A stretch of 44,115 bases of DNA, taken from assembly GCA_003132445.1 (NCBI GenBank), contig PKXU01000088.1, positions 1 through 44,115 on the forward strand. The letters run 5' to 3'. This document shows positions 7,156-35,457 of this stretch, piece by piece. Source of the stretch: Acidobacteriaceae bacterium. Its GTDB lineage: Bacteria > Acidobacteriota > Terriglobia > Terriglobales > Acidobacteriaceae. The number at the start of each line of letters is the position of its first letter. Position 1 is the first letter of the stretch. The notes under the pieces are model-generated. The model had not been told where the DNA came from. It ran no database searches and saw nothing but the letters and a program-made list of their open reading frames with translations. The translations under genes and the position numbers were made by a program.

Positions 7156-7294
7156 CAGTTCTCAGTTCATAGTTCTCAGTTCTCAGTGAAATCCTGAAGG
7201 GACTGGCATTGATGAGACCGCAATTACAACATGCCTTGGCTATACGATGTTGCGGGATTGGAACTGGGAACTGGGAACTGGGAACTGAGAACTG
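7156..7294. repeat. Heptamer repeat locus A: inverted arms of CAGTTCT / GAACTGG units
   Basis: The left arm has CAGTTCT-type units at 7156, 7163, 7170 and 7177 plus a partial one (CAGTG). The right arm has GAACTGG at 7261, 7268 and 7275, GAACTGA at 7282, and GAACTG at 7289. All units are exactly 7 bp, and the arms are reverse complements of each other across a 72-bp spacer, so the transcript could form a long imperfect hairpin. It fills the gap between the membrane protein and the CxxC protein. Confidence 0.9.
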
Positions 7295-7317
7295 CTTTTG
7301 CGGTATCATTCGCTCAA

Positions 7318-7626
7318 ATGGCGAAGAATCCCCCAAATTTCGAAGTGACCTGTCCCTGTTGTAGCGCGGTGCTTAAAATTGACACGGAGACCCGCGCCGT
7401 GATCGCGCATACCGCGGCCGTCAAACCGAAAATGTTCAACGACATGGAAGCGGCAGCCAAGGCAATGCGAGAGCAGGACAGCCGGCGCGAGTCGATCTTT
7501 CAGCAGTCGGTGGAAGCTCAACGGAACGCCTCGGACCTGCTGGAGAAAAAATTTCAGGAAGCCGTACGGAAGGCGAAAGAGACTCCTGACACCGGCAAGC
7601 CGATTCGGGATTTCGATCTCGACTGA
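7318..7626 (+). CDS. Small CxxC (zinc-ribbon-like) coiled-coil protein
   Basis: The 102-residue protein starts at ATG 7318 (MAKNPPNFEV). An earlier in-frame start would translate the heptamer repeat arm and is rejected. The N-terminal EVTCPCCSAVLKID contains a CPCC knuckle, too short for a full four-Cys ribbon. A highly charged helical segment (about residues 40-90, with many Glu, Arg and Lys) is probably a coiled coil. Function is unknown. GDPD follows 11 bp downstream, suggesting co-transcription. Confidence 0.75.
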   Translation: MAKNPPNFEVTCPCCSAVLKIDTETRAVIAHTAAVKPKMFNDMEAAAKAMREQDSRRESIFQQSVEAQRNASDLLEKKFQEAVRKAKETPDTGKPIRDFDLD

Positions 7627-7637
7627 TTTTTCAGCGC

Positions 7638-8321
7638 ATGACTCGTACGAGCATGACTGGCCCGCGCAGGAGCCCGCGTCCGCTTCTTCTTGGTCACCGG
7701 GGTGCACGCGCGCTGAAATCGATTCCGGAAAATACCCTGGCATCGTTCGAGCGGGCGTTGGCCGACGGTTGCGACGGTTTCGAATTTGATGTGCGGCTGG
7801 CGGCCGACCATCGGCCGGTGGTTTGCCATGATCCGCAGGTTGGCAGCTTTGAGATTGCGCTCGCAACTGCTGAACAGTTGACCGCGCTGCCGCAGTTGCA
7901 GGATGTACTTGCCCGCTACCAGGAGTCCGCATTTCTCGATATTGAACTCAAAGTGTCTGGGCTAGAAAAAATCACCGCAGCCTTGCTGCAGAAGTTCCCA
8001 CCCCGACGCGGCTTTGTGGTGTCGTCGTTTCTGCCAAGCGTGCTTCAGACCATTCATGATCAAGACGCCGAAGTTCCTCTGGGCTTAATCTGCGAAACAG
8101 AAGCGCAATTGGGTCTTTGGAGCGAACTCCCCATTGAATATGTGATCCCACACCACAAACTTGCCGACAGGGATTTGGTTCGGCGGATTAAACTCGCGGG
8201 CAGGAAAATTATCGTTTGGACGGTCAACACTCCCGCCGGCATGCGGCGTTTGGCGAAATACGGCGTCGACGGGATTATCTCGGACAACACTCGCCTGCTC
8301 TGCAGGACGTTGGGAGAATAG
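7638..8321 (+). CDS. Glycerophosphodiester phosphodiesterase
   Basis: The 227-residue protein is a cytosolic-type GDPD, with no signal peptide. The enzyme hydrolyses glycerophosphodiesters to sn-glycerol-3-phosphate and an alcohol. Visible catalytic and metal motifs are LGHRGA followed by PENTLASFERALADG, FEFDVRLAADHRPVVCHD (Glu, Asp and His ligands), the strand FLDIELK, and near the C-terminus VWTVNTP and GVDGIISDNT. A second in-frame ATG lies at 7653, and either could be the start. The product could feed the glycerol-3-phosphate dehydrogenase encoded 2 kb downstream. Confidence 0.92.
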   Translation: MTRTSMTGPRRSPRPLLLGHRGARALKSIPENTLASFERALADGCDGFEFDVRLAADHRPVVCHDPQVGSFEIALATAEQLTALPQLQDVLARYQESAFLDIELKVSGLEKITAALLQKFPPRRGFVVSSFLPSVLQTIHDQDAEVPLGLICETEAQLGLWSELPIEYVIPHHKLADRDLVRRIKLAGRKIIVWTVNTPAGMRRLAKYGVDGIISDNTRLLCRTLGE

Positions 8322-8457
8322 AGTCGCATACTCTTTGCTGTTAAGGTTTGGATCGTCCTGCGATCGAGCTCGTGGCCCGCATGGTACGGCATTCGAATCA
8401 CGCCGTTCTCTGCGATATACTTCCGAAACCTCATTCTAAAGATAGGGATCGCTCCGC

Positions 8458-9474
8458 ATGGCCGTTGGTGTTCGCACTCAAGATCTGCGCAAGGTCTATA
8501 ACTCCGCTCCCCCGTTAGGGGCTGCGGGAGGTTTTATCGCGCGTGCCGACGCCAAGGGCGGCAAGCAGCCCAAGACTCAAATCCCGGCCCTCGATGGGCT
8601 CTCGCTGGAAGTTCATCCGGGAGAAATATTTGGTTTGCTCGGCCCCAACGGCGCGGGCAAATCAACCACCGTCGGAGTGCTCACCACGCGCGTGCGTCCA
8701 ACTTCAGGGCAAGCCTGGATTGGCGAGCACGATGTATGGAAGGAACAGGCTCGAGTCAAGTTGCTGATTGGAGTGGTGCCGCAGCGTCCGAACCTGGATT
8801 TCTCTTTGACGGCGCGCGAGATTCTGGTTTTTCACGCTGCCTACTTTGGAATCGCGTCCAAGCTGCGAAACGAGCGCGCCGACGCGTTGCTGGAAAAGTT
8901 CAAACTTACCGAGCGCGCCCATCAAATGGTGCGCGGTTTTTCGGGCGGCATGATGCAGCGGCTTTCCATTGCCCGCGCCATGATGCACGATCCGCAGGTT
9001 TTATTTCTCGATGAGCCCAGCGCCGGGCTCGATCCTCAAACGCGCATTCTGTTGTGGGAGATCATTCGCGAATATCACCAGGCGGGCAAAACCGTGCTGC
9101 TGACAACTCACAACATGGAGGAGGCGGACGCGCTCTGCGAGCGGCTGGCTATTATTGATCACGGCCATGTAATCGCCGTGGGTACGCCTGGGCAGTTGAA
9201 GGCTTCGATACCCGGAGGCTTCGTGCTGCGCCTTCGCTTCGGGAATCAAACGGCGGAGTTGCTGGAGCGACTAAAGTTGCTCGCAGGCGTCCGCGAGGTG
9301 CGCGCTAGCGACGGCGCTGGGGCCGACGTGTATGCAGATCGCGGTGGTTCACTCATTCCCGAGATCGCGAACTTGGCTTCCGCGGCAGGCGCTGAATTGT
9401 CCGACGTTCACATCCTGGAACCGAGTCTGGAAAATCTTTTCCTGCACCATACCGGAAGGAGCTTGCGCGATTGA
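8458..9474 (+). CDS. ABC transporter ATP-binding protein (DrrA/CcmA-like)
   Basis: The 338-residue nucleotide-binding subunit has Walker A GPNGAGKST, Q-loop region VVPQRPNLDFSLT, signature FSGGMMQRLSIARA, Walker B VLFLDEPSAGLDP and the switch His in LLTTHNMEEAD. The C-terminal 100 or so residues form the extension seen in DrrA-type ATPases. A Gly/Ala/Lys-rich stretch of about 25 residues (around residues 20-45) interrupts the usual N-terminal strand pair. The next gene overlaps its stop (TTGA), so the two form a translationally coupled exporter. Substrate unknown. Confidence 0.93.
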   Translation: MAVGVRTQDLRKVYNSAPPLGAAGGFIARADAKGGKQPKTQIPALDGLSLEVHPGEIFGLLGPNGAGKSTTVGVLTTRVRPTSGQAWIGEHDVWKEQARVKLLIGVVPQRPNLDFSLTAREILVFHAAYFGIASKLRNERADALLEKFKLTERAHQMVRGFSGGMMQRLSIARAMMHDPQVLFLDEPSAGLDPQTRILLWEIIREYHQAGKTVLLTTHNMEEADALCERLAIIDHGHVIAVGTPGQLKASIPGGFVLRLRFGNQTAELLERLKLLAGVREVRASDGAGADVYADRGGSLIPEIANLASAAGAELSDVHILEPSLENLFLHHTGRSLRD

Positions 9475-10241
9475 ACTGGAAAACTTTTTTCGCCATGCTG
9501 GCGCGCGACGCTCATGTGGCGCGGCGGAATGCCATCCAACTTCTGATGCAAACTTTCCTGCAGCCGCTGCTATTCGTCTTCATTTTCGGCAAGGTAATGG
9601 TGGGCAGCGGATATATGCCCCAGGCATATAAGAGTCTTCTGCTCCCCGGCATTATCGCGATCAGCATGGTCTTCACCGGAGTCTGGGCGGTGGCAATGCC
9701 GCTGATCGCCGAATTTCAGTGGACCCGCGAAATCGAAGATCGCCTGCTCGCGCCCATTGACGTGCAGTGGCTGGCCGTTGAGAAAGTCATCGCGGGAATG
9801 CTGCAAGCGCTGGTGGCTGGGCTGGTTGTTTTGCCTCTGGCGTGGCTGGTGCTTGGAAGGGGAGTTCAAATCAGCATCGGTACTCCCTGGACCTTCGCTC
9901 TGATGATTTTGCTGGTTGCCGGTTTTTCCGCATGCGGAGGACTGGCCTTAGGCTGCAGCATCGATCAGCAGCATATTGGGCTGATGTTCAGCATGGTGAT
10001 GACTCCCATGATTTTCTTTGGGTGTACCTACTATCCATGGAGCGCGCTGAAACCTTTTCCGATTCTGCAAAAAATCGTGCTCATCAACCCGCTGGTCTAT
10101 GCCAGCGAAGGATTACGCGCCACGCTGGTTCCGCAGTTCCAGCATCTGTCACTCACTGCTGTCCTGATTGCGTTGCTTTTCTTTGACGTGCTACTGCTGG
10201 TTGTGGGATTGCGGCGCTTCGAGAAGAAGGCTGTGAGTTAG
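9471..10241 (+). CDS. ABC-2 type transporter permease
   Basis: The 256-residue membrane subunit has about six hydrophobic segments. The cytoplasmic loop EFQWTREIEDRLLAPI between the second and third is typical of the ABC-2 family. So is the late motif FGCTYYPWSAL with INPLVYASEGLR. The TTG start at 9471 overlaps the ATPase stop as TTGA. The 3' end overlaps the convergent glpD by 4 bp. With the ATPase it forms a two-gene DrrAB-like exporter of drugs, lipids or glycans. Confidence 0.92.
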   Translation: MNWKTFFAMLARDAHVARRNAIQLLMQTFLQPLLFVFIFGKVMVGSGYMPQAYKSLLLPGIIAISMVFTGVWAVAMPLIAEFQWTREIEDRLLAPIDVQWLAVEKVIAGMLQALVAGLVVLPLAWLVLGRGVQISIGTPWTFALMILLVAGFSACGGLALGCSIDQQHIGLMFSMVMTPMIFFGCTYYPWSALKPFPILQKIVLINPLVYASEGLRATLVPQFQHLSLTAVLIALLFFDVLLLVVGLRRFEKKAVS

Positions 10242-11878
10242 TCGGCGGCGGCTTCCAACGCGGAAGTTGCGCGGGACGGTTGTTTTAGGAATGCTGTGCG
10301 TTCCATTTCAAACGATTCCAGATTCGCTCCCAGGTCCTGCTCTTTCCAGCCCAGCACGGCTCCAATGCGTAACGCGGCTTCGCGGCTGCAGGATTCCGAC
10401 CAGCAGGCTCCCAGCGCAACCGGAACCCGGCGCAGCAGCACATCACCCAGGGTGACGGCAAACTCTTTGCGGTAAGCCTCCACCACTTCGGCCACAATGT
10501 GCGAGCTATGGGGACAGATCGGCGCCCGCAGTTCCGCGCTTACCAGCGCCATCCTGGCAATCGCCATGGCATTGCGGCCGTGCCACTCCATCATTCCTCG
10601 CGCAGTTTCTTCGCTCACTGAGCCGGCGCGAGCGATTTCCAGAACTTCCTGATCGAGCATGGGATCGAGCGAGGGTCCCGGACCCATGGCTAGCATCTTT
10701 GGTTCTGCGACCGCGAGGCCAATCTTACGAGCGCACTCGCGCGCCAGCGAAGATGCCGTAGTCAATTTGCCGCCAATGAGCGAAATCATACGCGACGCGC
10801 CTTCGGGCGCATGGTCGTGCAGAAAATGACGCCGCGTAACCGCGGAAGCCTTGTTTCCGGGAGAGTTCGGAAGGGGACGAACTCCAGCAAACGCATATTT
10901 GATGTCTTGTGCCGAAAGCTTCGCCTTCGGAAATAACTTTGCCGCGGTGCGCAGCAGATATTCGATTTCTTCATCCGAAGGCGCCGTTTTTCCCGGGTCG
11001 CCACTGTCTGCGACTTCGGTGGTGCCTACCATCACTTGTTCGTTCCACGGCAAAACAAAGACGGGACGGCCATCCGCTGCCTCGGTGTAGAGCGCCGCCG
11101 TCGGAGCGCCGGAAAAACGAGGCAAAACAATATGCGAGCCGCGTACTCCGCCCAACATTGGTTTGGTGGTGCGTATTGCGGAACGCTGGCAAATGCGGTC
11201 GGCCCACGGTCCGGTGCAATTGAAAATCCAGCCGGCATCGACGCGCTCATCTTTTCCGGAAATCCGGTCGCGCAGCAGCACGCCGCGAGCCCTTCCTTGC
11301 GCCACGTCCACGGCGAGCACTTCACAGTGATTGCGCAAAACCGCTCCCGCCTCGGCGGCTTCCGTCATCCACTCGGCTACCAGGCGTTCGGGAAATTCGC
11401 ACTGCGCGTCTTCGTAATTAAAAATTGACCATTGATGTCCGGCGTCGAGCGCCCGCTCCACGCGCATGAGCTCCATCTCACTCAATGCAGTGGATTTTCT
11501 TCCCGCGAATCGCTGATAGAGCCACAGTCCGGCGCGCACTTTCATGGCGCTGCGCTGACTGTGTTCGTTGAGCAGAAACAAAAAATGCACAGGATGGACC
11601 AGGTGCGATCGCTCACGCAGAAGGCGCTCCCGTTCCCGCACAGATTCGCGAACCAGACCAATCTCGCCATGTTCCAGATAGCGCAAGCCGCCGTGAATGA
11701 TTCGCGTCGATCGGCTGGTCACACCGGAGGCGAAATCGTTTTGCTCAACCAGAAGCGTGCGTTTCCCAGCGCGGGCGCATTCGCGCGCTACGGCCACGCC
11801 GTTGATTCCCCCGCCAATGACCACGACGTGGAAGTGCTGTCCATCCACCGGCGGTCGAGGTTTAACGGCTAAACTCAT
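10238..11878 (-). CDS. glpD: FAD-dependent glycerol-3-phosphate dehydrogenase
   Basis: The 546-residue protein oxidises sn-glycerol-3-phosphate to dihydroxyacetone phosphate and passes electrons to quinone at the membrane. The FAD-binding motif VVVIGGGINGVAVARE is at residues 18-33. The family signature GVTSRSTRIIHGGLRYLE and the later block YAFAGVRPL with SLIGGKLTTASSLARE are all present. Length and the C-terminal helical DAO_C domain agree with GlpD. No other glp gene is adjacent. The start ATG 11878 has only a weak ribosome site. Confidence 0.93.
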   Translation of the reverse strand: MSLAVKPRPPVDGQHFHVVVIGGGINGVAVARECARAGKRTLLVEQNDFASGVTSRSTRIIHGGLRYLEHGEIGLVRESVRERERLLRERSHLVHPVHFLFLLNEHSQRSAMKVRAGLWLYQRFAGRKSTALSEMELMRVERALDAGHQWSIFNYEDAQCEFPERLVAEWMTEAAEAGAVLRNHCEVLAVDVAQGRARGVLLRDRISGKDERVDAGWIFNCTGPWADRICQRSAIRTTKPMLGGVRGSHIVLPRFSGAPTAALYTEAADGRPVFVLPWNEQVMVGTTEVADSGDPGKTAPSDEEIEYLLRTAAKLFPKAKLSAQDIKYAFAGVRPLPNSPGNKASAVTRRHFLHDHAPEGASRMISLIGGKLTTASSLARECARKIGLAVAEPKMLAMGPGPSLDPMLDQEVLEIARAGSVSEETARGMMEWHGRNAMAIARMALVSAELRAPICPHSSHIVAEVVEAYRKEFAVTLGDVLLRRVPVALGACWSESCSREAALRIGAVLGWKEQDLGANLESFEMERTAFLKQPSRATSALEAAAD

Positions 11879-12069
11879 GGATGTTTAATTCGATGACAAG
11901 TATGGAGTTCCTGCAGGCTCGGCCGCGGAGATACTCCCAGATGATCTTAATTGTCCACGCAAACGGCTGGGACTTGAAGGTCACGATAGTCCACGGGTCG
12001 CGCGGCCATTCGAGGTAACATTCTAGGTAACATGCGCACGATGCCCAAAGTAATCTCGCGCATAAAATG

Positions 12070-12103
12070 TCACCCGGCTGGGCCTGAGGGCCGAACCGGG
12101 TGA
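12070..12103 (-). terminator. Nested inverted repeat downstream of the PfpI gene
   Basis: TCACCCGG (12070-12077) pairs with CCGGGTGA (12096-12103), and an inner GGCC-TGAG-GGCC hairpin lies between. It begins 37 bp past the stop of the reverse-strand PfpI gene, a suitable place for a terminator. Only a weak T-rich stretch (ATTTTAT) follows on that strand, so intrinsic termination is plausible but unproven. The rest of the gap 11879-12140 shows only a short direct repeat (AGGTAACAT). Confidence 0.45.
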
Positions 12104-12140
12104 AATGAAAGTGCAATCCATCGCGGCTTGCGAATGTCAG

Positions 12141-12743: not shown

Positions 12744-12780
12744 TTCTTCCTCCTGAATGAATTTGGGATTCGATCGTTTA

Positions 12781-12803
12781 GCTAAGAGCTAAGAGCTAAG
12801 AGC
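12781..12803. repeat. Heptamer repeat locus B: (GCTAAGA)3
   Basis: Three perfect copies of GCTAAGA start at 12781, 12788 and 12795, followed by GC. Read on the other strand the unit is GCTCTTA, which matches the units at 23764 and 27822. It is a single arm between the divergent PfpI and mazG genes. I see no clear inverted partner. The rest of the 240-bp gap shows no other feature. Confidence 0.85.
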
Positions 12804-12983
12804 AAAAACGAAGAGCGCGAAATTGTTCGGTAGAGCTAGGATGCCATCTGGCCGTCGACGGTTGGCGTAAAGCATTTGTCGAGTTTCCCCGCAGCCGCAT
12901 GACTTTTGTAAAGCTCAGGAGCGCGGAACTCGCCCCGGCCCGCGTTGCTTCCTGCCTCGACCGTCATTTACATTGGTTGCCGA

Positions 12984-17553: not shown

Positions 17554-18273
17554 ATGGCATCAGTCACCCATAATTTCATGAAGCTCTTTCGCAGCTCTTC
17601 GGGCGGGTCGGAAACGACTACACCCGCCGCCGCGCAGAAAATCGCACGCCGCTCCAGCGGCTTGGGCGAGCTCTCGCGCTTCTGGGAGGCTGAGACTCCG
17701 CTGTGCGTGCTCGACCTGGGTTCGACATCGGCGTCGAATATTCGATTTTTCACCGAACGCAGCCACAAAATTTACAGTGAAGATTTGCTCGTCGCTTCGA
17801 CGGATCCGAGTTTGGCGACGAAAGATGAACAGGGCAATCCCATCCTTGACAGCCGTAGGTTTCTGGCCGACAACGTGGTTTATCCCGCAGCCCATTTCGA
17901 TGTCGTGCTGTGTTGGAATCTGCCAGACTATCTGGACGAGAGCCTGGTGCGGCCGGTTATGGGACGTTTGTGGTCGGTGCTCAAGCCGGGAGGAATGATG
18001 CTCGCGTTTTTTCATACCAAAGACGCTGGGCCCGATTCTCCCTGCTACCGCTTCCACATTGTCGGAAAAGATACGCTTGAAATGCAGCCCATCGTGCTGC
18101 GCCGTGAAACCCGCCGCGGGTCGACGGGAGCCGTGCATACCGCTGTGGGCGAGGGTTTCCGCCTGCAGCGCGTTTTTAATAACCGCCACATTGAAACTCT
18201 CTTCCGCGATTTTGCCTCTATCAAATTCTTTTTGGCCCGCGACAATGTGAGGGAAGTGTTGGTCGTGCGGTAA
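17554..18273 (+). CDS. Class I SAM-dependent methyltransferase-like protein
   Basis: The 239-residue protein has a methyltransferase Rossmann pattern: LCVLDLGSTSASNIRFFTE as motif I (LDLGS with a degenerate glycine loop), AAHFDVVLCWNLPDYLDE as the motif IV region, and WSVLKPGGMMLAFFHTKD. The Gly-rich SAM loop is weak (GSTSA instead of GxGxG), so catalytic activity is uncertain. Substrate unknown. A short Ser/Thr-rich N-terminus precedes the domain. Following a bactofilin suggests shared transcription and perhaps an envelope-related role, which is inference only. Confidence 0.8.
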   Translation: MASVTHNFMKLFRSSSGGSETTTPAAAQKIARRSSGLGELSRFWEAETPLCVLDLGSTSASNIRFFTERSHKIYSEDLLVASTDPSLATKDEQGNPILDSRRFLADNVVYPAAHFDVVLCWNLPDYLDESLVRPVMGRLWSVLKPGGMMLAFFHTKDAGPDSPCYRFHIVGKDTLEMQPIVLRRETRRGSTGAVHTAVGEGFRLQRVFNNRHIETLFRDFASIKFFLARDNVREVLVVR

Positions 18274-18282: not shown

Positions 18283-18384
18283 AATTACTGATTGCTGATT
18301 TTTGATTGCTGATTGCTGATTGAAAACCACTAGCCGCTTTTTGATTCTTCAATCAACAATCAAAAATCATCAATCAACAATTTC
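18283..18384. repeat. Heptamer repeat locus C: inverted arms of GATTGCT / CAATCAA units
   Basis: The left arm has GATTGCT, GATTTTT, GATTGCT, GATTGCT and GATTG from 18290 to 18322. The right arm has CAATCAA, CAATCAA, AAATCAT, CAATCAA and CAATTTC from 18350 to 18384. Even the variant third-from-outside unit is matched (GATTTTT with AAATCAT). The spacer is 27 bp. It lies between convergent methyltransferase genes, and the right arm supplies the last codons and TGA of the reverse-strand gene. It could act as a bidirectional terminator. Confidence 0.92.
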
Positions 18385-19051
18385 TTCCCTTCCACGCAAT
18401 GACTCCCATGCGAAACAGAAAGTGCCGCGAGATTTCTACCCGCAGGCTTGGTGCGGCTCTCAATAGAATCTGGCGTATCTCTTTCGGAACATAGGCCTGG
18501 CGGACGGAGGCAAGGCCGTCCACGCGCGATACATAGCTGCGCATCAGCGGGAAACCCGCATACACCAGCGCGAGGTGCAAGGGATGCCGAACAATGTCAT
18601 TGATTAAGATCGCGCAGCGGCTCACACGTAATGACTCAGCCGCAAAGCGCGAAAGTTCGACAGGCCCCAAGTGGTGGGCAAACAGGCTGCAACTCACCAG
18701 ATCGAAACTGCCATCCGGAAAGGGAAGCGCCAGCGCATCCGCGACCACGGCACGATTGGTGCGCAACAAATGAGTGCGCACTCGATCAAGATCGGTGATG
18801 TCGAGAGTGATTCCCTTACCCGCCAATTGCCGCGCCGCGAGTCGGGGTACTTCACCCAGACCCGCGCCCACTTCCAGGAGAGAGAAAGTTTTTGTTCCGG
18901 TCGCGGAAGCAACGCGCTCAATCAGATTCCGCGTGGTGGCAACTCCGCCGAACCAACGATTGATGCGGCACAGATCACGCAGCGAAGTTTCCACCTCGGC
19001 GGGAGGACATGTATCCGAATCGAGGACTTCAGTTTGACTGATTCGCTGCAT
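18374..19051 (-). CDS. Class I SAM-dependent methyltransferase
   Basis: The 225-residue protein from ATG 19051 has motif I SLLEVGAGLGEVPRLAA, the acidic strand ITLDITDLDRVR, VVADALALPFPDGSFDLVSCSLFAHHL (motifs II-IV) and a hydrophobic helix region RHPLHLALVYAGFPLMRSYVSRVDG. The upstream 30 in-frame codons (19052-19141) lie inside the MITE-like element, so the inner ATG is preferred, though its ribosome site is weak. The family resembles methyltransferases found with polyketide or lipid-modifying genes, but no such partner is adjacent. Its stop codon is formed by heptamer repeat C. Confidence 0.82.
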   Translation of the reverse strand: MQRISQTEVLDSDTCPPAEVETSLRDLCRINRWFGGVATTRNLIERVASATGTKTFSLLEVGAGLGEVPRLAARQLAGKGITLDITDLDRVRTHLLRTNRAVVADALALPFPDGSFDLVSCSLFAHHLGPVELSRFAAESLRVSRCAILINDIVRHPLHLALVYAGFPLMRSYVSRVDGLASVRQAYVPKEIRQILLRAAPSLRVEISRHFLFRMGVIAWKGRNC

Positions 19052-23763: not shown

Positions 23764-23800
23764 GTTCTTAGCGGTTAGCTCCTAGCTTTTCGTTCTCAGC
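23764..23800. repeat. Heptamer repeat locus D: GTTCTTA/GCTCCTA units
   Basis: Units GTTCTTA, GCGGTTA, GCTCCTA, GCTTTTC and GTTCTCA start at 23764, 23771, 23778, 23785 and 23792. They are degenerate but keep a strict 7-bp period and share the GCTYYTA consensus of loci B and E. The repeat lies between the convergent acyl-CoA dehydrogenase and membrane-protein genes. It supplies the TAG stop (23782-23784) and last codons of the latter. Confidence 0.8.
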
Positions 23801-26858: not shown

Positions 26859-27122
26859 TTGAAAGGATGGTTCCAAAACGCCGGCAAACGAGGGCTTGGT
26901 GTCTTTGCAACAAATGGGAATTCTGAGATTGCCTTTATTCTGCAGTTTCGGGCGTTGGATCCCGAGGTTCCATCGCCGCTTTCGACGTCTCCATTTTCTT
27001 CTGTCTCGGACGTACACATTCATTTCTGCCCGTGGTGTGGCGCCAACTTGAGGAAAACCTACGGCGACACGCTCCGCGAGCTCGACCGGTCTGAACTACG
27101 GGTCCGTTTACTGAGAGAATGA
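26859..27122 (+). CDS. Possible small CxxC protein, or gene remnant
   Basis: This 87-codon frame overlaps the tsaB start (ATGA, 27119-27122). Its second half reads VHIHFCPWCGANLRKTYGD and then a charged helix, which looks like a genuine CPWCG zinc-knuckle end of a conserved small protein. The first half (GWFQNAGKRGLGVF and the Ser/Pro-rich part) looks unlike coding. It may be a decayed gene or start later than 26859. The preceding 26774-26858 contains GCCACGGATTTCACGGAT, a sequence type common in bacterial intergenic repeats. Confidence 0.35.
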   Translation: MKGWFQNAGKRGLGVFATNGNSEIAFILQFRALDPEVPSPLSTSPFSSVSDVHIHFCPWCGANLRKTYGDTLRELDRSELRVRLLRE

Positions 27123-27829
27123 TACCGAACAGCATCGAAATGCTTCTTCTCGTCACTGACACTTCCGGCAAGCAGGGCAGTGTCGCCTTGGCGCGGACAA
27201 ACGACCCCGGTCGCGTTGAAGTAGTCGAAGTAGCTCTGCTTGCAGGAGGGATGTTCTCTGCGCAACTGGTGCCGCAGATCGCCGGGTTGCTTGCCAGGCA
27301 TCATTTCGCTAAATCCGACATCGATGTCTTCATTGTTGTCTCTGGGCCCGGGTCATTTACTGGCCTGCGCGTGGGACTTGCCGCAATTAAGGCGCTGGCT
27401 GAGATTCTGAACAAGCCCATCGTCCCCGTGTCGCTTTTGCAGGTGGTCGCTGTTGCGAGCGGTACTCAGGGGAGGGTTGTCGCTTTGCTTGACGCTGGGC
27501 GCGGGGATGTTTATTTCGGGGCGTACGAAATTGCCGGAGAGTCGGTCGAGGTTCAGGAAGAGCGATTGATGTCGAAAAATGAATTTCTATCCACTGAATT
27601 TTTGTCTACGGCCCGCGATGCAACTGTCGCAATTCCCGACGCGGCTTGGGCCGCAGTGGCGCGGGAAGCCGGGCTTTCTGTGGTCGAGTTCGACCCGCCC
27701 GAAGCTGGAACTATCGCAAAGGTGGGTTTGATTAGACTCCGCGCCGGAGGAACTGTCTCGCCCGAACGCCTGGAGGCAAACTACATGCGACGCTCCGACG
27801 CCGAAATGTTTGTGAAGAAGAGCTCCTAG
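27119..27829 (+). CDS. tsaB: tRNA threonylcarbamoyladenosine biosynthesis protein TsaB
   Basis: The 236-residue protein has the ASKHA-fold start LLLVTDTSGKQGSVALAR and the family hallmark VVSGPGSFTGLRVGLAAIKALAEIL, then VVALLDAGRGDVYFGAYE. TsaB is the non-catalytic partner of TsaD in making t6A37 on ANN-decoding tRNAs. A second in-frame ATG is at 27140, so the N-terminal seven residues are uncertain. RimI follows 29 bp downstream, an arrangement widely seen. The stop TAG lies within heptamer repeat E. Confidence 0.93.
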   Translation: MIPNSIEMLLLVTDTSGKQGSVALARTNDPGRVEVVEVALLAGGMFSAQLVPQIAGLLARHHFAKSDIDVFIVVSGPGSFTGLRVGLAAIKALAEILNKPIVPVSLLQVVAVASGTQGRVVALLDAGRGDVYFGAYEIAGESVEVQEERLMSKNEFLSTEFLSTARDATVAIPDAAWAAVAREAGLSVVEFDPPEAGTIAKVGLIRLRAGGTVSPERLEANYMRRSDAEMFVKKSS

Positions 27830-27854
27830 CTCTTGGCTCCTAGCTTTTAGCTCG
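27822..27854. repeat. Heptamer repeat locus E: GCTCCTA units
   Basis: GCTCCTA, GCTCTTG, GCTCCTA, GCTTTTA and GCTCG start at 27822, 27829, 27836, 27843 and 27850. The first unit encodes the last Ser and the TAG of tsaB. The repeat fills the 29-bp gap to rimI completely. It belongs to the same GCTYYTA family as loci B and D. No inverted partner is present. Confidence 0.88.
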
Positions 27855-27858
27855 AACA

Positions 27859-28752: not shown

Positions 28753-28780
28753 CTCCCAACGGCTGCGACCGTTGAGGGAG
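28753..28780. terminator. Bidirectional terminator-like hairpin between convergent genes
   Basis: CTCCCAACGG (28753-28762) pairs with CCGTTGAGGGAG (28769-28780) around CTGCGA, with two unpaired bases. It lies between the stops at 28740 (+) and 28804 (-). Short A/T tracts flank both sides rather than a clear T-run, so the strength is uncertain. Confidence 0.6.
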
Positions 28781-28803
28781 AAATCTACCCTGCAACAGGT
28801 CGG

Positions 28804-31800
28804 TTATTCTTTCTTCGCCGGCTCGGCATTTACCGGCGCAACCAGCACAGTCAAGTTGCTATCCGCAAGCGAGCGATTCAGCGCGGGAAGTTCCTCTTTC
28901 ATCACTTTCTGGTAATCCGCATCCACTCTCTCCAGTTCTGTTTCAAATCCGTTCAGTAATCCCAGTTGGGTGTCGGTTGGGGCGAAATCAGCGCCGCCGG
29001 CCACGTCGCCGCCTCCGGTGCCGACCTCGGCGTTCAGCCAGATCAGGTCAAGATAAACCTTATAGGGCTCGACGAAGTACTTATCATCGCTGTTGAGCAA
29101 TGCCGGCGACGCCAGTTCGCATTCCACGGTATAGAGTTTTTTGTCCACATCCTCTGTGGCCTTCAGCAGTTCTGCTTTGCGTTTTGTTTGAGCTTCGTCC
29201 AATACTGGTGGAGGGGCGGGCGCAGGTGCTCCTCCTTCGTCATCGTCCTCATCCACGCTTACCTGTTCCTTTTCTTTTTTCTTGGGCGGTCGCAGCATCG
29301 CCTCGATTACTTCGATCTGTTTACGAAGCCATTCGATCTGATTGACGGTGTCGGAAACTTGATCGATGTCGGCGGTGATACGGCGCAAAGTTTTCACAGA
29401 CAGTTCAATGTCTGCATCCGATCCGGGTGCGCGAGGGTCGCGCAAAATGGTGAGTGGTTGAGTGTAGGATTGGTCTCCGATCTTCAAGCGAACGGTGTAT
29501 TTTCCCGGAGCGACAATCGAACCAGCTTCGGCCGGTTTCGTTCCCCAATGGGTAATCGGCCGCGAATCGGAATCGCGGAAGCGCGGTTCCTGCCAGATGT
29601 GCGAGTTGTTTGGGGCCGTGGTTCGCAATGCGATCAATCGCGGAGATTCGTAGCGCAGATCCCAGTGCACCCGGTTCATGCCAACGCGAGCCTTCGCTTC
29701 GAGCGTTCGGATTACCTTGCCGTCCGAGTCGAGAATCTCCACGTGGATTGGATCTTTTGGCGCGGTTTTCAGCGAAAAGTTCAGCATCGCCTGGCCGCCG
29801 CGAGTGAAACGATACGTATTGCGCGGTTCAAACAGAATAACCGGTGCATCCGAACGATTCTTTGCCATCTGCTCCAGCGGCGAAATGTCATCCAAAATAT
29901 AAAGCCCGCGGCCGTATGTCGAAATCACCAGATCATGAAACTCTTTCTGCACCACCGCCCACGTCACCGGCGCGTGCGGCAAACCCGTTTCCAGCGCGGT
30001 CCAATGGCCGCCATCATCGAGGGAGTAGAACAGGCCGTTTCCCGTACCGGCAAACAGCAGGCCTTCACAATTAGGATCTTCCGCAATGGTACGGATGTAA
30101 GACAATTCATGTTTCGGTAGATTGCCACTGATCTGCTTCCAGGTTTTTCCGAAGTCTGTGGTTTTGTAGATAAAGGGATCGCGATTATCCATGAGATGGA
30201 AATCAACGCTGATGTATGCGGCCCCGGGATTGAAATTCGAAGGCGCAATGCTCGTGATCGTGCCCCACGGAGGCAGCCCAGCAATATTCTTAGTGACATT
30301 GATCCAGTTCGTCGCATCTTTCGTATTCCATACTTGACCATCATTTGTTCCAGCCCAGATCAGTCCTTTCTGAATTTTCGAAGGCGCGATCGCGAAGACT
30401 ACTTCTCCATAAAATTGTCCGAGGTTGTCTCCGACGATTCCGCCGGAAGGCACGATGCGGGAAGGATCCTGCGTAGATAAGTCAGGACTGATGACCGACC
30501 AGCTCTGGCCGCCGTTGGTAGTTTTGAAAATTACCTGGCAGCCGTAATAAACCGTGTTGTGGTCGAAGGGATCGATGGCAAGCGGCGCGGTCCAATGGCA
30601 GCGATACTTAATATCGCTTGGTGGTGAATCCAGAGTATGCATCCACGGACTGACTGAGCGCGCGTGCTTGGTCCGGGCATCCCAGCGCGTGACTTTATTC
30701 CCGTAGCAAGTGGCCCAGACGACGTTCGTATCGGCCGGATCGGGAACCGTGAAACCGGATTCGCAACCGCCCATTTCGCGGTCCCAGCCGGTTTCCCGAG
30801 AATCCACCGGCAGACTTGGGCCGCGCATGTTTCCGTCGTCTTGCATGTTGCTGTAGAAGTAGTAGGGAATCTGATTGTCCACGTCGACGTGGTACATCTG
30901 CCCGATGGGCAACGTGGCCCGATGAAAGCCGCGCCCGTGTACGGTGGTGATGTTCATGCCGCCATCGTCGGTAATCACAAAGCGATCGGCATTTGTGGGG
31001 TCGATCCAGATGTCGTGCGTATCTCCGCCCCAGGGGACTTCCTTGAAATTTTCTCCTCCATCCAGTGACTGGTGGAAGGAGCTGTTAGCCACGAAGATTT
31101 CATTGTCGCTCTCCGGTGAAACTGCCAAGCGAATGTAGTAGCCCGCGCGTCCGATCAATGCTCGTTGATAATTGATCGCCTTCCAATGCACTCCCACATC
31201 GTCGGATCTCCAGACTGAACCTTGGTCCTTGGTCTGAATCAGCGCGAAGACGCGATTCGAATTTGTCGGAGCGACCGCGACGTCGATCTTCCCCAGCGGT
31301 CCCTTGGGCAGACCATGTTCTTCGATCCGGGTCCATTTTGTTCCGCCATCGTGAGAAACGTAAACTCCGCTCCCTGGACCGCCGCTGAATTCACCCCAGG
31401 TATGCATTTCCACCTCCCACATACCCGCAAATAGAGTGTGCGGATTGTGAGGATCGATGGACAGGCCGGAGCAGCCCACGTTTTCTCCGGCAAACAGGAC
31501 ACGTTCCCAGTGCTGCCCACCGTTGGTGGTGCGGAAGACGCCCCGATCTTGTTGAGGCCCCGTCGTGCGCCCCAGAACGCAGGCGAAAACGATGTCGGAA
31601 TTGGTTGGATGGATGACGATGCGCCCGATGCGCCCACTTTCCGGCAGCCCCATGTTTGTCCACGTTTTACCGGCGTCGGTGGATTTGTAGATTCCGTTGC
31701 CCATCACGTCGCTGTCGCGGATCGCCCATGCCTCGCCAGTTCCCGCCCAAACCGTGCTCGGATCAGAAGCAGCCACGGCCAGAGCGCCGATCGCGGTGAC

Positions 31801-32064
31801 CGGTTGCTTGTCAAAAATTGGCGTCCAGTGGTTGCCGCCATCAATCGATTTCCAGACTCCTCCCGAGGCAGCGCCCGCGTAATAGGTGCTCGCATCCCCG
31901 GGAACGCCAGCGATGGCAGCGACGCGGTTCCCGACCTTGGGGCCAACAAAGCGGAATCGAAACTGTCCTTCGTCGTCTGAGTCCGGTTGTTGCGCGTGCG
32001 CGGGAAGCATACTGCCGAGCATTGCAATCGCAGTGAGAAAGAACGTCAGTTTCCTGATGGCCAT
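28804..32064 (-). CDS. Large secreted BNR/sortilin-like beta-propeller protein
   Basis: The 1086-residue protein has a signal peptide (residues 1-24, ending AHA). The first 700 residues hold many BNR/Asp-box-like repeats, such as SIDGGNHWTPI, STDAGKTWTNMG and TTNGGQHWERV. These form beta-propellers as in sortilin (VPS10) domains and sialidases. The C-terminal part has a beta-sandwich region (VHWDLRYESPR) and a charged, acidic-and-proline linker (SVDEDDDEGG, then PAPAPPP). No catalytic residues are recognisable. Such proteins are frequent and often multicopy in Acidobacteria. A role in binding surface polymers or proteins is inference. Confidence 0.9.
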   Translation of the reverse strand: MAIRKLTFFLTAIAMLGSMLPAHAQQPDSDDEGQFRFRFVGPKVGNRVAAIAGVPGDASTYYAGAASGGVWKSIDGGNHWTPIFDKQPVTAIGALAVAASDPSTVWAGTGEAWAIRDSDVMGNGIYKSTDAGKTWTNMGLPESGRIGRIVIHPTNSDIVFACVLGRTTGPQQDRGVFRTTNGGQHWERVLFAGENVGCSGLSIDPHNPHTLFAGMWEVEMHTWGEFSGGPGSGVYVSHDGGTKWTRIEEHGLPKGPLGKIDVAVAPTNSNRVFALIQTKDQGSVWRSDDVGVHWKAINYQRALIGRAGYYIRLAVSPESDNEIFVANSSFHQSLDGGENFKEVPWGGDTHDIWIDPTNADRFVITDDGGMNITTVHGRGFHRATLPIGQMYHVDVDNQIPYYFYSNMQDDGNMRGPSLPVDSRETGWDREMGGCESGFTVPDPADTNVVWATCYGNKVTRWDARTKHARSVSPWMHTLDSPPSDIKYRCHWTAPLAIDPFDHNTVYYGCQVIFKTTNGGQSWSVISPDLSTQDPSRIVPSGGIVGDNLGQFYGEVVFAIAPSKIQKGLIWAGTNDGQVWNTKDATNWINVTKNIAGLPPWGTITSIAPSNFNPGAAYISVDFHLMDNRDPFIYKTTDFGKTWKQISGNLPKHELSYIRTIAEDPNCEGLLFAGTGNGLFYSLDDGGHWTALETGLPHAPVTWAVVQKEFHDLVISTYGRGLYILDDISPLEQMAKNRSDAPVILFEPRNTYRFTRGGQAMLNFSLKTAPKDPIHVEILDSDGKVIRTLEAKARVGMNRVHWDLRYESPRLIALRTTAPNNSHIWQEPRFRDSDSRPITHWGTKPAEAGSIVAPGKYTVRLKIGDQSYTQPLTILRDPRAPGSDADIELSVKTLRRITADIDQVSDTVNQIEWLRKQIEVIEAMLRPPKKKEKEQVSVDEDDDEGGAPAPAPPPVLDEAQTKRKAELLKATEDVDKKLYTVECELASPALLNSDDKYFVEPYKVYLDLIWLNAEVGTGGGDVAGGADFAPTDTQLGLLNGFETELERVDADYQKVMKEELPALNRSLADSNLTVLVAPVNAEPAKKE

Positions 32065-32195
32065 TCCTGGGACCTCCGCTAAAACAGGCTGTCAAAACAA
32101 GCGTGCATCTTACATGTCCGCGGGCGACGGGCCAAGTCGGGCGGCGCGGAAATCGTCCAGCGCCCGTGCAGCCTGCTCTATAATTGAAAGCTCTC

Positions 32196-32858
32196 ATGGT
32201 TCGTGACGGATACTTCTATGCTTTGGGCCTGATTGCCGCCGCCATTCTGCTGGGCTGGCTGACCCGCCCTGCATGGGCCATCATCCCATGCTTGCTGGCG
32301 CTTTTCTTTCTCTGGTTTTTTCGCGATCCCGAGCGGGCGATCCCGCAGGACGAGGGCGCCGTGGTCTCACCTGGCGACGGTAAGGTCACCGACGTTTCGA
32401 CGGTGATGGTGGGGAACGAAAAGCTGATTCGCGTCAGCATTTTCCTCAGCGTATTTGATGTGCACGTGAACCGCTCTCCAGTCGCGGGAGTGGTTAGCAA
32501 TGTGCGCTACCAGCGTGGCAAGTTTCTGAACGCCATGAACACGGTTTCAGCGGAGAAGAACGAGCAGAATATTGTCACGGTAGAAGGCGAGGGTCAGAAG
32601 GTTATCTTCAAGCAGATCGCGGGTTTGCTGGCGCGCCGAATCGTTTTCACTCCAAAGGTTGGCGACCGGCTGCAGCGAGGTCAACGGGTGGGTCTGATCA
32701 AGTTCGGTTCGCGCGTGGACCTTTTGTTCGATGCCTCAGCCCACATGAACGTGAAAGTGGGAGATCGCGTGAAAGGCGGCGCCAGCGTGCTGGCCTACTT
32801 ACTCCCGCAAGGCGGGTTGGCCACCACGAGCGCTCAGACCACCGAGAGGGCACGGTGA
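32196..32858 (+). CDS. psd: Phosphatidylserine decarboxylase, short archaeal-like type
   Basis: The 220-residue proenzyme makes phosphatidylethanolamine from phosphatidylserine. Two N-terminal membrane segments (about residues 7-40) precede [24 protein letters not shown]. The central block [11 protein letters not shown] holds the conserved His/Asn. The self-cleavage site is in [11 protein letters not shown], where the Ser becomes the pyruvoyl group. The ATG lies 11 bases after TATAAT (32179-32184), so the leader may be very short. The next gene overlaps by one base. Confidence 0.93.
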
Positions 32859-33724
32859 TGGATCAACCCGCGCGCACACCGCGAGGCCGACAGAGCAAGG
32901 GGATGTACATCCTGCCATCGCTGTTCACCACCGCTAACATGGCGCTCGGTTATTACGCCATGCTCGAGGTGATGCGAGCCACGCTCACCGATTTCTGGCA
33001 CCTCGACAATGCGGCCAAAGCGATCGGTTTCGCGGTGCTGTTCGACGGGCTCGACGGGCGCATCGCGCGCATGACAGGAACCAGCAGCGATTTTGGCCGT
33101 GAACTAGATTCTCTGGCCGACGTAATCACCTTTGGCGTGGCTCCAGCCATGTTGGCGTGGACATGGGGCTTTTACCTGATGCCCCCGGTTTTGCTGACCG
33201 ATTGGCACAATAATTGGCACATTAAGCTCACGCAGCTCGGCGCCATCGCTTCCTTCCTTTTCTTGATTGCCGGTGCCAGTCGCCTGGCGCGCTTCAACAT
33301 AACGAGCAATCCCCAGCCTTCGAATCCCGGCCGGCCCGGCAAGAAATATTTTGTCGGTATGCCCATCCCGGCGGGCGCGGGCGTTGTGGCGGCAGTAGTT
33401 CATTTCACCGCGGGGGATCCATTGGTCTCGTGGTACACCTCGCTGATCTGGTTTGTGATGGTCACGACTGTCGGCTACTTGATGGTGAGCACGTGGCGTT
33501 TTTACAGCTTTAAAGATATTGATTTCCGTTCGCGCCATCCCTTTCGCCTGATTCTTTTTCTGGCGGCGCTGTTCGCCTCCATCTGGTTTTTTTCTCGGCT
33601 CATGCTTTTCGTCATTGCCCTGCTCTATATGGTTTCCGGGGTCTTTTGGAGAGTGCAATGGATGTTCCGCCGACGCGGCGATCGACCGCCTCCTTCCTAC
33701 AAGGAGGCTTCGCAGACGTCATGA
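32858..33724 (+). CDS. pssA: CDP-diacylglycerol-serine O-phosphatidyltransferase PssA
   Basis: The 288-residue membrane enzyme carries the CDP-alcohol phosphotransferase signature DGLDGRIARMTGTSSDFGRELDSLADV, with all three Asp of the D(x2)DG(x2)AR(x8)G(x3)D(x3)D motif. It makes phosphatidylserine, the substrate of the Psd just upstream. About seven hydrophobic segments follow. ATG 32858 overlaps the psd stop (TGATG, with a GTG just before). The stop overlaps the next start as ATGA. Confidence 0.94.
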   Translation: MDQPARTPRGRQSKGMYILPSLFTTANMALGYYAMLEVMRATLTDFWHLDNAAKAIGFAVLFDGLDGRIARMTGTSSDFGRELDSLADVITFGVAPAMLAWTWGFYLMPPVLLTDWHNNWHIKLTQLGAIASFLFLIAGASRLARFNITSNPQPSNPGRPGKKYFVGMPIPAGAGVVAAVVHFTAGDPLVSWYTSLIWFVMVTTVGYLMVSTWRFYSFKDIDFRSRHPFRLILFLAALFASIWFFSRLMLFVIALLYMVSGVFWRVQWMFRRRGDRPPPSYKEASQTS

Positions 33725-34797
33725 GCGAGATCGCCAAATCACCGTCTGCTTCGCATCCGTTAGCCGCTCGCGGAAAACTTTACCGCGCAGCGGTTGTGGG
33801 CGCAGCCTCGCTCAAGGGCAAAGAAGTTGCCGAGATGCTCAATGAACGTAATTTTCCGGCGGCCGATATTCGCTTGCTCGACGATGACGAATCCATGGGC
33901 CAGCTCGAAGCCATGGGCGACGAGGTTAGTTTTATTCAGCGCGTGCGTGCGGAACAGTTTGAAAATGTGGACTTCACTTTCTTCGCGTCCGACGAGCAAA
34001 CGACGCGCAAGAACTGGAAAGATGCCCGCGATGCCGGCAGCGCCATCATTGATCTCTCCGCCTCTCTGGAAAGTGAACATGGAGCCAGCGTGCGCTCACT
34101 GTGGATTGAGCGTGAACGTGGCCAGATCCCCGCTCCAGAATTGCAGCCGGGCCCATGCGTAACCGCGCATCCAGTTGCGGTAACGCTGGCACTGGTTCTG
34201 TTGCGAGCAAAGAAAGCGGGCGAGATTCGCCGCGCGGTGGCCACGATTTTCGAACCTGCTTCCGAACATGGGCAGCGGGGGATGGATGAGTTGCATCAGC
34301 AGACCGTGAACCTGCTTTCGTTCCAGTCGCTGCCGAAAGACATTTTCGACGTGCAGGTGGCCTTCAACATGGTAGCCCGCTATGGCCAGAAGTCGCAGCC
34401 CGCGCTCGATTCCGTCGAAGCTCGCATCCAACGCCACTATCAGAAAATTGCGGGCGCAGATGCGCCGCGTCCGTCTCTGCTGTTGTTGCAGGCCCCCGTC
34501 TTCCACGGTCACGCGTTTGCTGTCTACCTTGAAATGGATCGTGCTATCGAGATTCAGGGGATCTCGTCGGCGCTAGCCGGCGATCACGTCTCCATTCCAG
34601 GCGCGGACGAAGACGTCCCGAGTAATGTCAGCGCCGCGGGACAGCCCGACATTCAGCTCTCGTTAAGAATCGATTCCACGCAGCCCAATGGCATCTGGTT
34701 GTGGGTGGCCGCGGACAATCTTCGCATCTCTGCGCTCACTGCGGTCGAATGCGCAGAGAGCATGACCGCGACCCGTCCCACGGGGAAGATTCAATGA
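33721..34797 (+). CDS. Aspartate-semialdehyde dehydrogenase-like protein (Usg-type paralogue)
   Basis: The 358-residue protein has the ASADH fold: AAVVGAASLKGKEVAEMLNERNFP near residues 22-45, IIDLSAS (109-115), a Cys in PGPCVTAHP (Cys146), and PVFHGHAFAVYLEMD (His262/264). True ASADH has a PNC-x-T motif and a conserved Arg before the VPVF...GHS segment. Here PNC is PGPC, the Arg is absent, and GHS is GHA. Similar proteins such as Usg are non-catalytic homologues of unknown role. It is coupled to pssA and lptE by ATGA overlaps. Confidence 0.82.
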   Translation: MSEIAKSPSASHPLAARGKLYRAAVVGAASLKGKEVAEMLNERNFPAADIRLLDDDESMGQLEAMGDEVSFIQRVRAEQFENVDFTFFASDEQTTRKNWKDARDAGSAIIDLSASLESEHGASVRSLWIERERGQIPAPELQPGPCVTAHPVAVTLALVLLRAKKAGEIRRAVATIFEPASEHGQRGMDELHQQTVNLLSFQSLPKDIFDVQVAFNMVARYGQKSQPALDSVEARIQRHYQKIAGADAPRPSLLLLQAPVFHGHAFAVYLEMDRAIEIQGISSALAGDHVSIPGADEDVPSNVSAAGQPDIQLSLRIDSTQPNGIWLWVAADNLRISALTAVECAESMTATRPTGKIQ

Positions 34798-35333
34798 ACA
34801 GGTCGCGTCTGCGGGCGCTTCCATCGTTCGCAGTTTTGCTGTTCGTGCTGTTTACTCTGGGATGCGGTTATCACACCGCCGGTCATGTGGCGCAGCAGCT
34901 TCCCGAAAATGTTAAGACTATTGCCGTTCCGGCATTCAAAAACGAAACCCTCACGTACCGCATTGAGCAGATGCTCACCGCCTCCGTGGTTCGCGAATTC
35001 ACCACGCGCACACACTATCGCATCATCAGCAATAGCGGCGACGACGCGGACGCAACCCTGCGCGGCACCGTGCTCTCCACTGCGGCTTCTCCGCTCACCT
35101 ACGATACGGCCACGGGGCAGGCCGCCAGCATCCTCGTGGTGGTGAGCATGAAAGTTACGCTTACGGATCGCGGCGGCAAGGTACTTTATCAGAATCCAGC
35201 CTACGTATTTCGGGAGCAATACGAAGTTTCGCAGGATTTGGCCAGTTTTTTTGAGGAAGATTCCCCTGCGTTCCGCAGGCTTTCGCAGGATTTCGCACGG
35301 ACCCTGGTCTCTAATATTCTGGAGGAATTCTAG
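34794..35333 (+). CDS. lptE: LPS-assembly lipoprotein LptE
   Basis: The 179-residue protein has a signal peptide with lipobox LFTLGC (Cys after LTLG, at about residue 24). GYHTAG follows directly, then IAVPAFKNETLTYRIEQMLTASVVREF, all typical of LptE/RlpB. LptE plugs LptD in the outer membrane for LPS insertion. ATG 34794 overlaps the preceding stop (ATGA). The following gene is holA, a linkage also common in proteobacteria (lptE-holA). Heptamer repeat F starts 17 bp after its stop. Confidence 0.92.
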   Translation: MNRSRLRALPSFAVLLFVLFTLGCGYHTAGHVAQQLPENVKTIAVPAFKNETLTYRIEQMLTASVVREFTTRTHYRIISNSGDDADATLRGTVLSTAASPLTYDTATGQAASILVVVSMKVTLTDRGGKVLYQNPAYVFREQYEVSQDLASFFEEDSPAFRRLSQDFARTLVSNILEEF

Positions 35334-35350
35334 ATGCTAGAGTTGCAGGA

Positions 35351-35457
35351 GGTCGCCGGTCGTTGGTCGGTGGTCGTTAGCCAATCGTTTACTATGCATG
35401 CGTTCGCTCGTGAGTTGCGAGTGTTTGGCCGACGACCAACGACCAAGGGCCAACGAC
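35351..35457. repeat. Heptamer repeat locus F: inverted arms of GGTCGTT / CAACGAC units
   Basis: The left arm has GGTCGCC, GGTCGTT, GGTCGGT and GGTCGTT from 35351 to 35378. The right arm has CGACGAC, CAACGAC, CAAGGGC and CAACGAC from 35430 to 35457. Both arms keep a strict 7-bp period and are reverse complements. The spacer is 51 bp. It lies between lptE and holA, and a transcript through both would contain the hairpin. holA's ribosome site GGAGAG is immediately downstream. Confidence 0.9.

Follow-up and report, generated by a model that had tools for sequence, protein, structure and literature searches.

Introduction

Cyanobacteria carry short tandemly repeated repetitive sequences, which are intergenic heptamers with more than one family per genome. 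Here we describe an element class of the same period in a 44,115-nucleotide stretch of an Acidobacteriaceae bacterium (GenBank assembly GCA_003132445.1, contig PKXU01000088.1, positions 1 to 44,115 of the forward strand; hereafter the window), in further stretches of this host and in its relatives. The class has a recurring design with several words: each arm is a module with a direction, about 29-32 nt long (four heptads and a further 1-4 nt), in which four to five short anchors stand at 7-nt steps and the linkers between them are partly free. About half of the arrays form convergent pairs around an unrelated spacer, often at most 10 bases from a stop codon, and several families occur in one genome. 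Among the papers listed in searches of the open PubMed Central (PMC) literature, no title or abstract describes paired heptad elements in Acidobacteria; an excerpt of the Solibacter genome paper mentions short repeats in general terms.

The nearest known case is the GGGAATC repeat of Xanthomonas, written (GGGANTN)n (Rehm et al. 2015, PMC4692102; this and the following systems are described from excerpts of the cited papers). Positions 1-4 and 6 of its unit are conserved and the others free, four units are preferred, 89-93% of the repeats are intergenic with 7-8% between divergent genes, and 70 and 75 convergent neighbouring pairs are reported. Near stops the repeats occupy the sense strand and ahead of starts the antisense strand, pointing away from genes; they are described as generally unconnected to mobile elements, and their four units have been tied to G-quadruplexes. 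A 7-nt unit with free positions, the preference for four units and the convergent pairs all recur in the elements analysed here, whereas the main words here lack the G-tracts that a quadruplex needs. Moreover, one G-rich family was studied per genome in Xanthomonas, as against several per genome here, with families differing by species at one and the same gap.

Other described systems share part of this architecture. In Geobacter metallireducens (PMC2700814), 49 elements have four heptanucleotide repeats (GGACCGG), some of them also inside genes, and five heptanucleotide repeats (MTYCTGA) occur in 15 of 16 class 3 sites; the putative regulator sites are mostly paired on opposite strands. Unlike the elements described here, they are labelled as putative regulatory or global regulator sites, and other classes consist of octamers or of three repeats. 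Heptamers are also reported from Calothrix, and from Nostoc as GGGGA(C/T)T, the latter, in contrast to the present case, with few inverted pairs (Rehm et al., PMC4692102). The TAACTGA direct repeats of marine Beggiatoaceae (PMC4679880) are intergenic heptamer arrays as well and are scattered over phyla, but they use a single word, with 169 direct sets and one indirect repeat in the main genome, mostly just upstream of starts. Finally, repetitive extragenic palindromic (REP) elements and their dimers, which bear GTAG or CGTC tags, lie between genes as inverted dimers, usually on the downstream side of a gene, and no transposase is known for the CGTC type (PMC3733652). A REP unit is itself a palindrome of 20-40 bp, whereas an arm here is a direct heptad array that is inverted only as a member of a pair.

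Results

Period-7 arrays are in sharp excess in intergenic DNA

The host scan covered 41 stretches (540,608 bases, the window included), about a tenth of a 5.12-Mb draft assembly that is 87% complete; the window is a portion of a 182,872-base contig. Arrays were scored period by period and then split by a simple gene caller, which called 77% of the bases as coding and on which the intergenic status depends throughout. Arrays were counted at score 11, compared with Markov copies at a stricter score of 13 and merged into pairs at score 12. The host has 31 intergenic and no coding arrays of period 7, against 0-3 intergenic and 0-4 coding arrays at each of the periods 4-6 and 8-13; periods 14 and 21 are a consequence of period 7. 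A single set of copies, generated from the 540 kb with a first-order Markov model, contained no period-7 array at score 13; the real sequence has 20. The relatives also peak at period 7, with 41 intergenic and 2 coding arrays in the genus mate G018 (440 kb), 10 and 1 in eleven other genus mates (338 kb), 12 and 2 in G025 of another family of the same order (180 kb), and 10 and 1 in G039 of the same class (171 kb). The density reaches 5.7 arrays per 100 kb in the host and 9.8 in G018. A preliminary description of the window had proposed autocorrelation at lags 4-20 as a check, a sharp excess at lag 7 counting in favour; in the sample and in the relatives alike the excess is sharp and restricted to intergenic DNA. 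The heptad repeats are thus genuine and greatly exceed chance expectation. Arrays coincide with or adjoin several contig ends and N runs (the ends of G001:C54 and C196, L023 near 2026, and L434); draft assemblies possibly break at such places, in which case the counts would be lower bounds.

A smaller, separate excess was seen in the host at period 15 (12 intergenic and 14 coding arrays in 540 kb; 38356-38405 is an example in the window), and in G018 lesser peaks appear at periods 16 and 15, with 15 and 11 intergenic arrays, respectively.

The words differ in their distribution. Three successive CAGTTNT units were found in 25 of 297 genomes sampled over the phylum and in 20 of 166 genera, compared to four genomes, once each, for the backward control. 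Three successive TNGTCGY units occur in 18 of 25 genomes of the genus and in none of 16 outside it, with 0-44 matches per genome (overlapping matches counted), and the backward control gave 11 matches in five genomes, five of them in the host, where the true pattern gave 11. The loci with three CAGTTCT units number at least 120, selected by that word and hence biased to long arrays; among the 80 matches listed, 40 contigs belong to Acidobacteria or Terriglobia and the others are spread over further phyla. Fulvivirga imtechensis (Bacteroidetes; L079, L098, L108 and L168) has 113 matches to three CAGTTNT units, with some arrays longer than 60 nt.

Arms are paired in inverted orientation with a single polarity

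A reverse-complement partner (score at least 13, within 200 bp) accompanies 52 of 104 intergenic arrays, whereas the complement word, the reversed word and the same word gave 7, 0 and 3 partners, respectively. The inverted pairing proposed from the window thus exceeds its controls by far. Merging yielded 34 pairs of 14 families, and within families the same strand of the word leads in all 76 comparisons, without exception. Exact double words behave likewise, with 15 neighbours arranged word-then-reverse, none in the opposite order and 20 in the same direction.

Arms of the TNGTCGY family were collected from 82 stretches, comprising 22 stretches of G018 and 60 small loci, of which 54 were selected for a TNGTCGY match among the matches listed and 6 for CAGTTNT, so that the pair frequency is not a genome rate. 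At distances of at most 160 bp, 44 pairs run word-then-reverse and one runs opposite, while 39 arms are unpaired. The sole exception, L461, is the junction of two near-identical element copies that lie 23 nt apart and have an identical spacer.

A purine/pyrimidine code for all words was also tried. Read on the first-arm strand, 10 of the 14 families fit the pattern YRRNYNY, and on the opposite strand 2 do (random heptamers, 22%), and the looser YRRNNNY fits 12 of the 14 on both strands; since the code was conceived after some of the words had been seen, it is not claimed.

Each arm behaves as a linear module with conserved anchors and free letters

Alignment of 86 of the 88 TNGTCGY arms gave the consensus of four GTCGTTN units followed by G and a tendency to CC(A)A, with weakly A-rich sequence outside; the free letter is G, A or C and rarely T. 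Four units are present in 52 of these 86 arms, three in 11, five in 11 and other numbers in 12. Both ends are sharp, as a single phase accounts for the outer ends of 62 and the inner ends of 65 of the 88 arms. Across families, arm length has its fullest bin at 31.5-35 nt (22 of 68 arms), 36 of the 68 family-agnostic arms measure 29-36 nt, and in six of the nine templates that yield pairs (these templates overlap) the count seen most often is 4.5 units. Conservation is position-specific: in AGCT-N-CT, the GCT is kept in 28 of 28 cases, while N is T in 11, C in 8, G in 8 and A in 1. In several families one position takes all four letters beside nearly fixed neighbours, and in others two or three letters.

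The two arms of a pair do not mirror each other. In 28 pairs the free letters match in register at 0.464, compared to 0.488 ± 0.038 after unit permutation, and folding of the 34 pairs against unit-permuted arms gave a mean z of -0.11, with 15 pairs below 0. The lack of covariation indicates that each arm acts as its own linear site, and gives no sign of foldback copying or of selection for exact pairing.

None of the main words CAGTTNY, TAGCTNY, TGATTNY and TNGTCGY has GGG on either strand, and G-tracts are found in minor words, namely GGATTAG and CGGGGTT (host), CCCTGAC (G018), CTGGCCC and TTCCCTT (G025) and CTCGGGC (G039). That the unit count is the same with main words devoid of G-tracts argues against a quadruplex as its general reason, although G-tracts do occur in these minor words.

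These features bear on how the arrays arose. The preliminary description had favoured a generating process that measures length and is blind to sequence; families common to many loci and species, a single polarity, a preferred count and position-specific conservation speak instead for a recognised element with several sequence families. Its null explanation, replication slippage, treats the arrays as simple sequence repeats with an intrinsic 7-nt preference. Such a preference has been proposed, with 7-nt dominance in most of the genomes studied (Mrazek 2007, as quoted in PMC4679880), and some arrays are indeed long and drift base by base. However, slippage yields neither inverted partners nor a single polarity, neither sharp end phases nor a preferred copy number, and no recurrence of one family at scattered loci. 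Simple slippage thus fails to account for the arrays and is very improbable on its own; it is hard to hold as the whole explanation, though it may act secondarily on long arrays.

Elements lie mostly at the 3' ends of genes

Tandem gaps hold 27 of the 34 pairs, convergent gaps 6 and divergent gaps 1, compared to 627, 135 and 170 background gaps (p = 0.009). A gene 3' end lies on at least one side of 33 of the 34 pairs, so that the elements resemble REP in being intergenic and mostly downstream of genes. Among the neighbouring 3' ends, 23 of 39 are at most 10 nt from the element, including four that overlap it. An orientation could be assigned to 29 of the 46 unpaired arrays, and 22 of these point away from the nearest gene boundary; those in tandem gaps run with transcription in 8 cases and against it in 11, with 13 more not orientable.

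This placement would be expected if selection acted on RNA, with transcript-end hairpins that terminate, protect or stall at mRNA 3' ends in the manner of REP. The closeness of 3' ends, the rarity of pairs in divergent gaps (1 of 34 pairs, where 170 of all 932 gaps are divergent; p = 0.009) and the predicted fold energies of the pairs, taken as raw values (-26 to -87 kcal/mol), are in line with such hairpins. Nevertheless, divergent gaps would be avoided equally if insertions there broke promoters, no terminator-like match was found in a scan around the pair at 35352-35457 of the window, and selection for a hairpin was rejected after the two tests of covariation gave no signal. The absent strand bias of single arrays relative to transcription likewise favours DNA over RNA as the level of action, and we regard RNA-level selection as unlikely. 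The supply of stop codons in all frames was rejected as a function because TGGTCGT, of the commonest family in G018, contains no stop codon on either strand.

Six loci of the window belong to four families

The preliminary description had listed six loci (A to F) of 7-bp period, with inverted arms at A, C and F and six unrelated units. The positions, the period and the three inverted pairs hold, whereas the units fall into only four family templates, CAGTTNY (A), TAGCTNY (B, D and E), TGATTNY (C) and TNGTCGY (F), because B on the minus strand, D and E have TAGCTNY in common.

Locus A starts 3 nt after the stop codon at 7150-7152 with a plus-strand arm of 4.5 CAGTTNY heptads (7156-7187), followed by a spacer of 72 nt (7188-7259) and a minus-strand arm of five heptads (7260-7294). 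At locus C, the plus-strand TGATTNY arm (18284-18321) lies 10 nt past a stop codon ending at 18273, and the minus-strand arm (18351-18381) overlaps the called 3' end of a convergent, minus-strand methyltransferase-like gene (18374-19051). Locus F is situated between an LptE-like gene and the gene of DNA polymerase III delta and conforms to the TNGTCGY arm design of four units, G and then CCAA. Its plus-strand arm 1 (35352-35380) reads GTCGCCG, GTCGTTG, GTCGGTG and GTCGTTA, followed by G; the spacer (35381-35428) is bounded by CCAA (35381-35384) and TTGG (35425-35428); and arm 2 on the minus strand (35429-35457, scored segment 35432-35457) reads C, then CGACGAC, CAACGAC, CAAGGGC and CAACGAC in the forward direction.

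The other three loci are TAGCTNY arrays, single at B and D. Locus B (12780-12803, minus strand) lies in a gap from which a DJ-1/PfpI gene and a MazG gene diverge. Locus D (23766-23790, plus strand) is degenerate and lies in a convergent gap after an acyl-CoA dehydrogenase gene, and locus E (27821-27852, plus strand) takes in the stop codon of the gene before it, which spans 27119-27829 and matches Pfam TsaD. Both D and E are weak, with scores below 11; Tandem Repeats Finder lists E at period 14 and does not list D. No Rfam model matched within the window at gathering score.

Elements are gained, lost and exchanged at orthologous gaps

We compared the orthologous gaps of the genus; states called by eye carry no score, and the carrier labels on the midpoint-rooted genus tree were entered by hand from these states, separately from the scored counts. 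At gap F, TNGTCGY arms (best arm at least 12) are present in 8 of 23 genus species, with both arms at least 12 in five, and by eye the gap is short and empty in G006, G010, G017, G004 and G008. The eight carriers sit in both halves of the tree, and the four-fold sites of the gene next to locus F are 39-66% identical to the host copy. TGATTNY arms were scored at gap C in three of 20 species; inspection by eye showed a CGAGTNC-like pair in G015 and a short gap in five species. The pair at gap A is found in the host only (1 of 23), with possible remnants of other words in G001 and G005 (by eye). TAGCTNY was found at gap E in 7 of 23 genus orthologues, the host included, and scored at gap D in 4 of 17. 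Another gap, judged by eye, has TAGCTNY arms in four species, an AGATTNY pair in G022 and a short gap in G002. The comparison of orthologous gaps, put forward in the preliminary description as a way to see gain and loss, thus revealed the element, nothing or another family at a given site. Elements hence appear, vanish or give way to another family, yet some outlast silent-site conservation or were regained.

Other contents of these gaps were also recorded. By eye, gap F (35334-35476 in the window) contains a thioredoxin-like (TlpA-like) gene instead in 8 of 23 species (L045-L048, L053, L055, L059 and L060), the gene in L060 having Pfam AhpC-TSA and Thioredoxin_8 matches. The same gaps hold other interspersed repeats, one with GTCATCCTGACCGGAGCCGTTCTTCAGGCG, a GTGGGGACAGCCGCC palindrome and a GGCGGACGAATGCGTCCGCC palindrome (by eye).

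Such turnover could reflect non-autonomous mobile elements similar to REP doublets forming hairpins (REPINs) or to miniature inverted-repeat transposable elements (MITEs), in which the convergent modules would be the ends recognised by a putative transposase. The fixed convergent polarity with sharp ends, the short empty sites at F and C, the lineage-specific copy number of TNGTCGY (18 of 25 genomes in the genus, 0 of 16 outside), a free letter that is genome-specific in some genomes, the differing families within one gap and the two adjoining copies at L461 are all consistent with this explanation. By contrast, the spacers are unrelated, which argues against the copying of entire elements. 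Alignment of 27 spacers of the 34 pairs gave no match longer than 14 nt; for the TNGTCGY family, 38 spacers from 44 pairs yielded a match between the L461 duplicates and otherwise nothing better than an 11-nt alignment (E 0.024); and the only match of the locus A spacer in 41 genomes searched is itself. At the ends as set, none of 42 flank pairs has a target-site duplication of at least three adjacent bases, and three share two bases. The conserved interior and target-site duplication that characterise a MITE are accordingly lacking. Long spacers of 160-4000 nt were not found between convergent TNGTCGY arms in the 440 kb of G018. We consider mobile elements a possible but on the whole unlikely source.

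At G003:C139:148220-148693, two convergent TNGTCGY matches, one per strand, lie about 425 nt apart, which is possibly a long-spacer element.

The REP-associated tyrosine transposase (RAYT, or TnpA-REP) was considered as a general generator. Unlike REP and REPINs, the elements gave no cognate Y1 transposase flanked by repeats (30 loci). These 30 of many Y1-transposase loci hold 2 arrays in 91.7 kb, and G025 (98% complete) has arrays and no PF01797 match. RAYT was rejected because of G025 and because its loci are array-poor compared to the density in the host and G018.

A repeat-adding repair, in which a telomerase-like enzyme would extend the two 3' ends at a DNA break with the word, predicts the polarity, the independent arms, the unrelated spacers and the absence of target-site duplications. 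Nevertheless, it predicts neither the preferred copy number nor the preferred inner end and would require several templates per genome; no such enzyme is known, and none was searched for. This explanation is retained as a minor alternative and appears very improbable.

Discussion

A putative protein stacking at 7-bp steps

We propose that the arrays are REP-like oriented heptad modules, often convergent, that are probably read in 7-bp steps by a putative DNA-binding protein, and assign this reading a rough probability of 0.45. The protein would oligomerise along the DNA at 7-bp steps and read the anchors in one direction; period, orientation and the lower limit of about four units would follow from this, and in each unit one or two letters could still vary. 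Two facing modules may let two protein stacks meet over the spacer at gene boundaries, mostly downstream of genes. In such a scheme, the words could shift over time because sites and readers drift together, whereas the period could not, as it would be the step of the protein. The fixed period, direction and usual count, the kept anchors with free linkers and the absence of pairing between arms fit a protein that stacks every 7 bp. A mode of working of this kind is described for the ribbon-helix-helix protein Omega of pSM19035 (PMC9499535), of which one dimer binds each non-palindromic 7-bp repeat, direct or inverted, and at least four contiguous repeats are required for full activation of the partner; the likeness to the heptad arms would be one of working and architecture only, with no kinship claimed.

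Several observations weigh against this reading. The binding protein was neither identified nor searched for. The design is loose in part: 17 of the 68 family-agnostic arms are out of range (12 longer than 39 nt and 5 shorter than 24 nt), arms of 8-19 units occur and look slippage-like, and along some long arrays the units change by single bases while the 7-nt step is kept (L156, L139, L183 and L193). With loose templates the opposite polarity is also found, the ratios of word-then-reverse to opposite neighbours being 44:5 for CAGTTNY, 9:1 for TAGCTNY, 13:3 for TGATTNY, 8:2 for AGATTNY, 8:1 for CRGACNT, 10:4 for CGGCTTY, 6:1 for CAGCNTT, 16:11 for YGAGTNC and 13:51 for TGAYNRC; these runs have same-direction neighbours as well, and among the hits listed for the last two templates are chance matches and arms that belong to other families. 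Neighbouring 5' ends also lie at most 10 nt from the element in 8 of 29 cases, so closeness is not peculiar to stop codons. Among the matches listed, the free letter of CAGTTNT is genome-specific, being G throughout in G115, G236 and G065, mostly C in the host and mixed in G170 and G300; a genome-specific letter looks like copying. Moreover, TNGTCGY matches range from 0 (7 of 25 genus genomes) to 44, a wider variation than essential sites would predict.

Implications for heptamer repeats in bacteria

It is possible, if doubtful, that the heptamers of Xanthomonas, Geobacter, cyanobacteria and Acidobacteria are one widespread class of oriented modules, served by a conserved putative 7-bp-stepping machine whose word is rewritten often; the comparison follows published descriptions of the Xanthomonas, Geobacter and cyanobacterial elements, and the unity of the class is not a result of this work. 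Earlier explanations of the heptamer excess in bacterial intergenic DNA invoked slippage of the polymerase or, for Xanthomonas, G-quadruplexes. Here, elements whose main words lack G-tracts agree in count, pairing and position, which speaks against a quadruplex as a general cause and suggests a trans-acting reader. If the single class is real, the machine would fix the period and the count of about four while the word is rewritten even within one genome or site, and G-quadruplexes and slippage would be the wrong explanations for the heptamer class.

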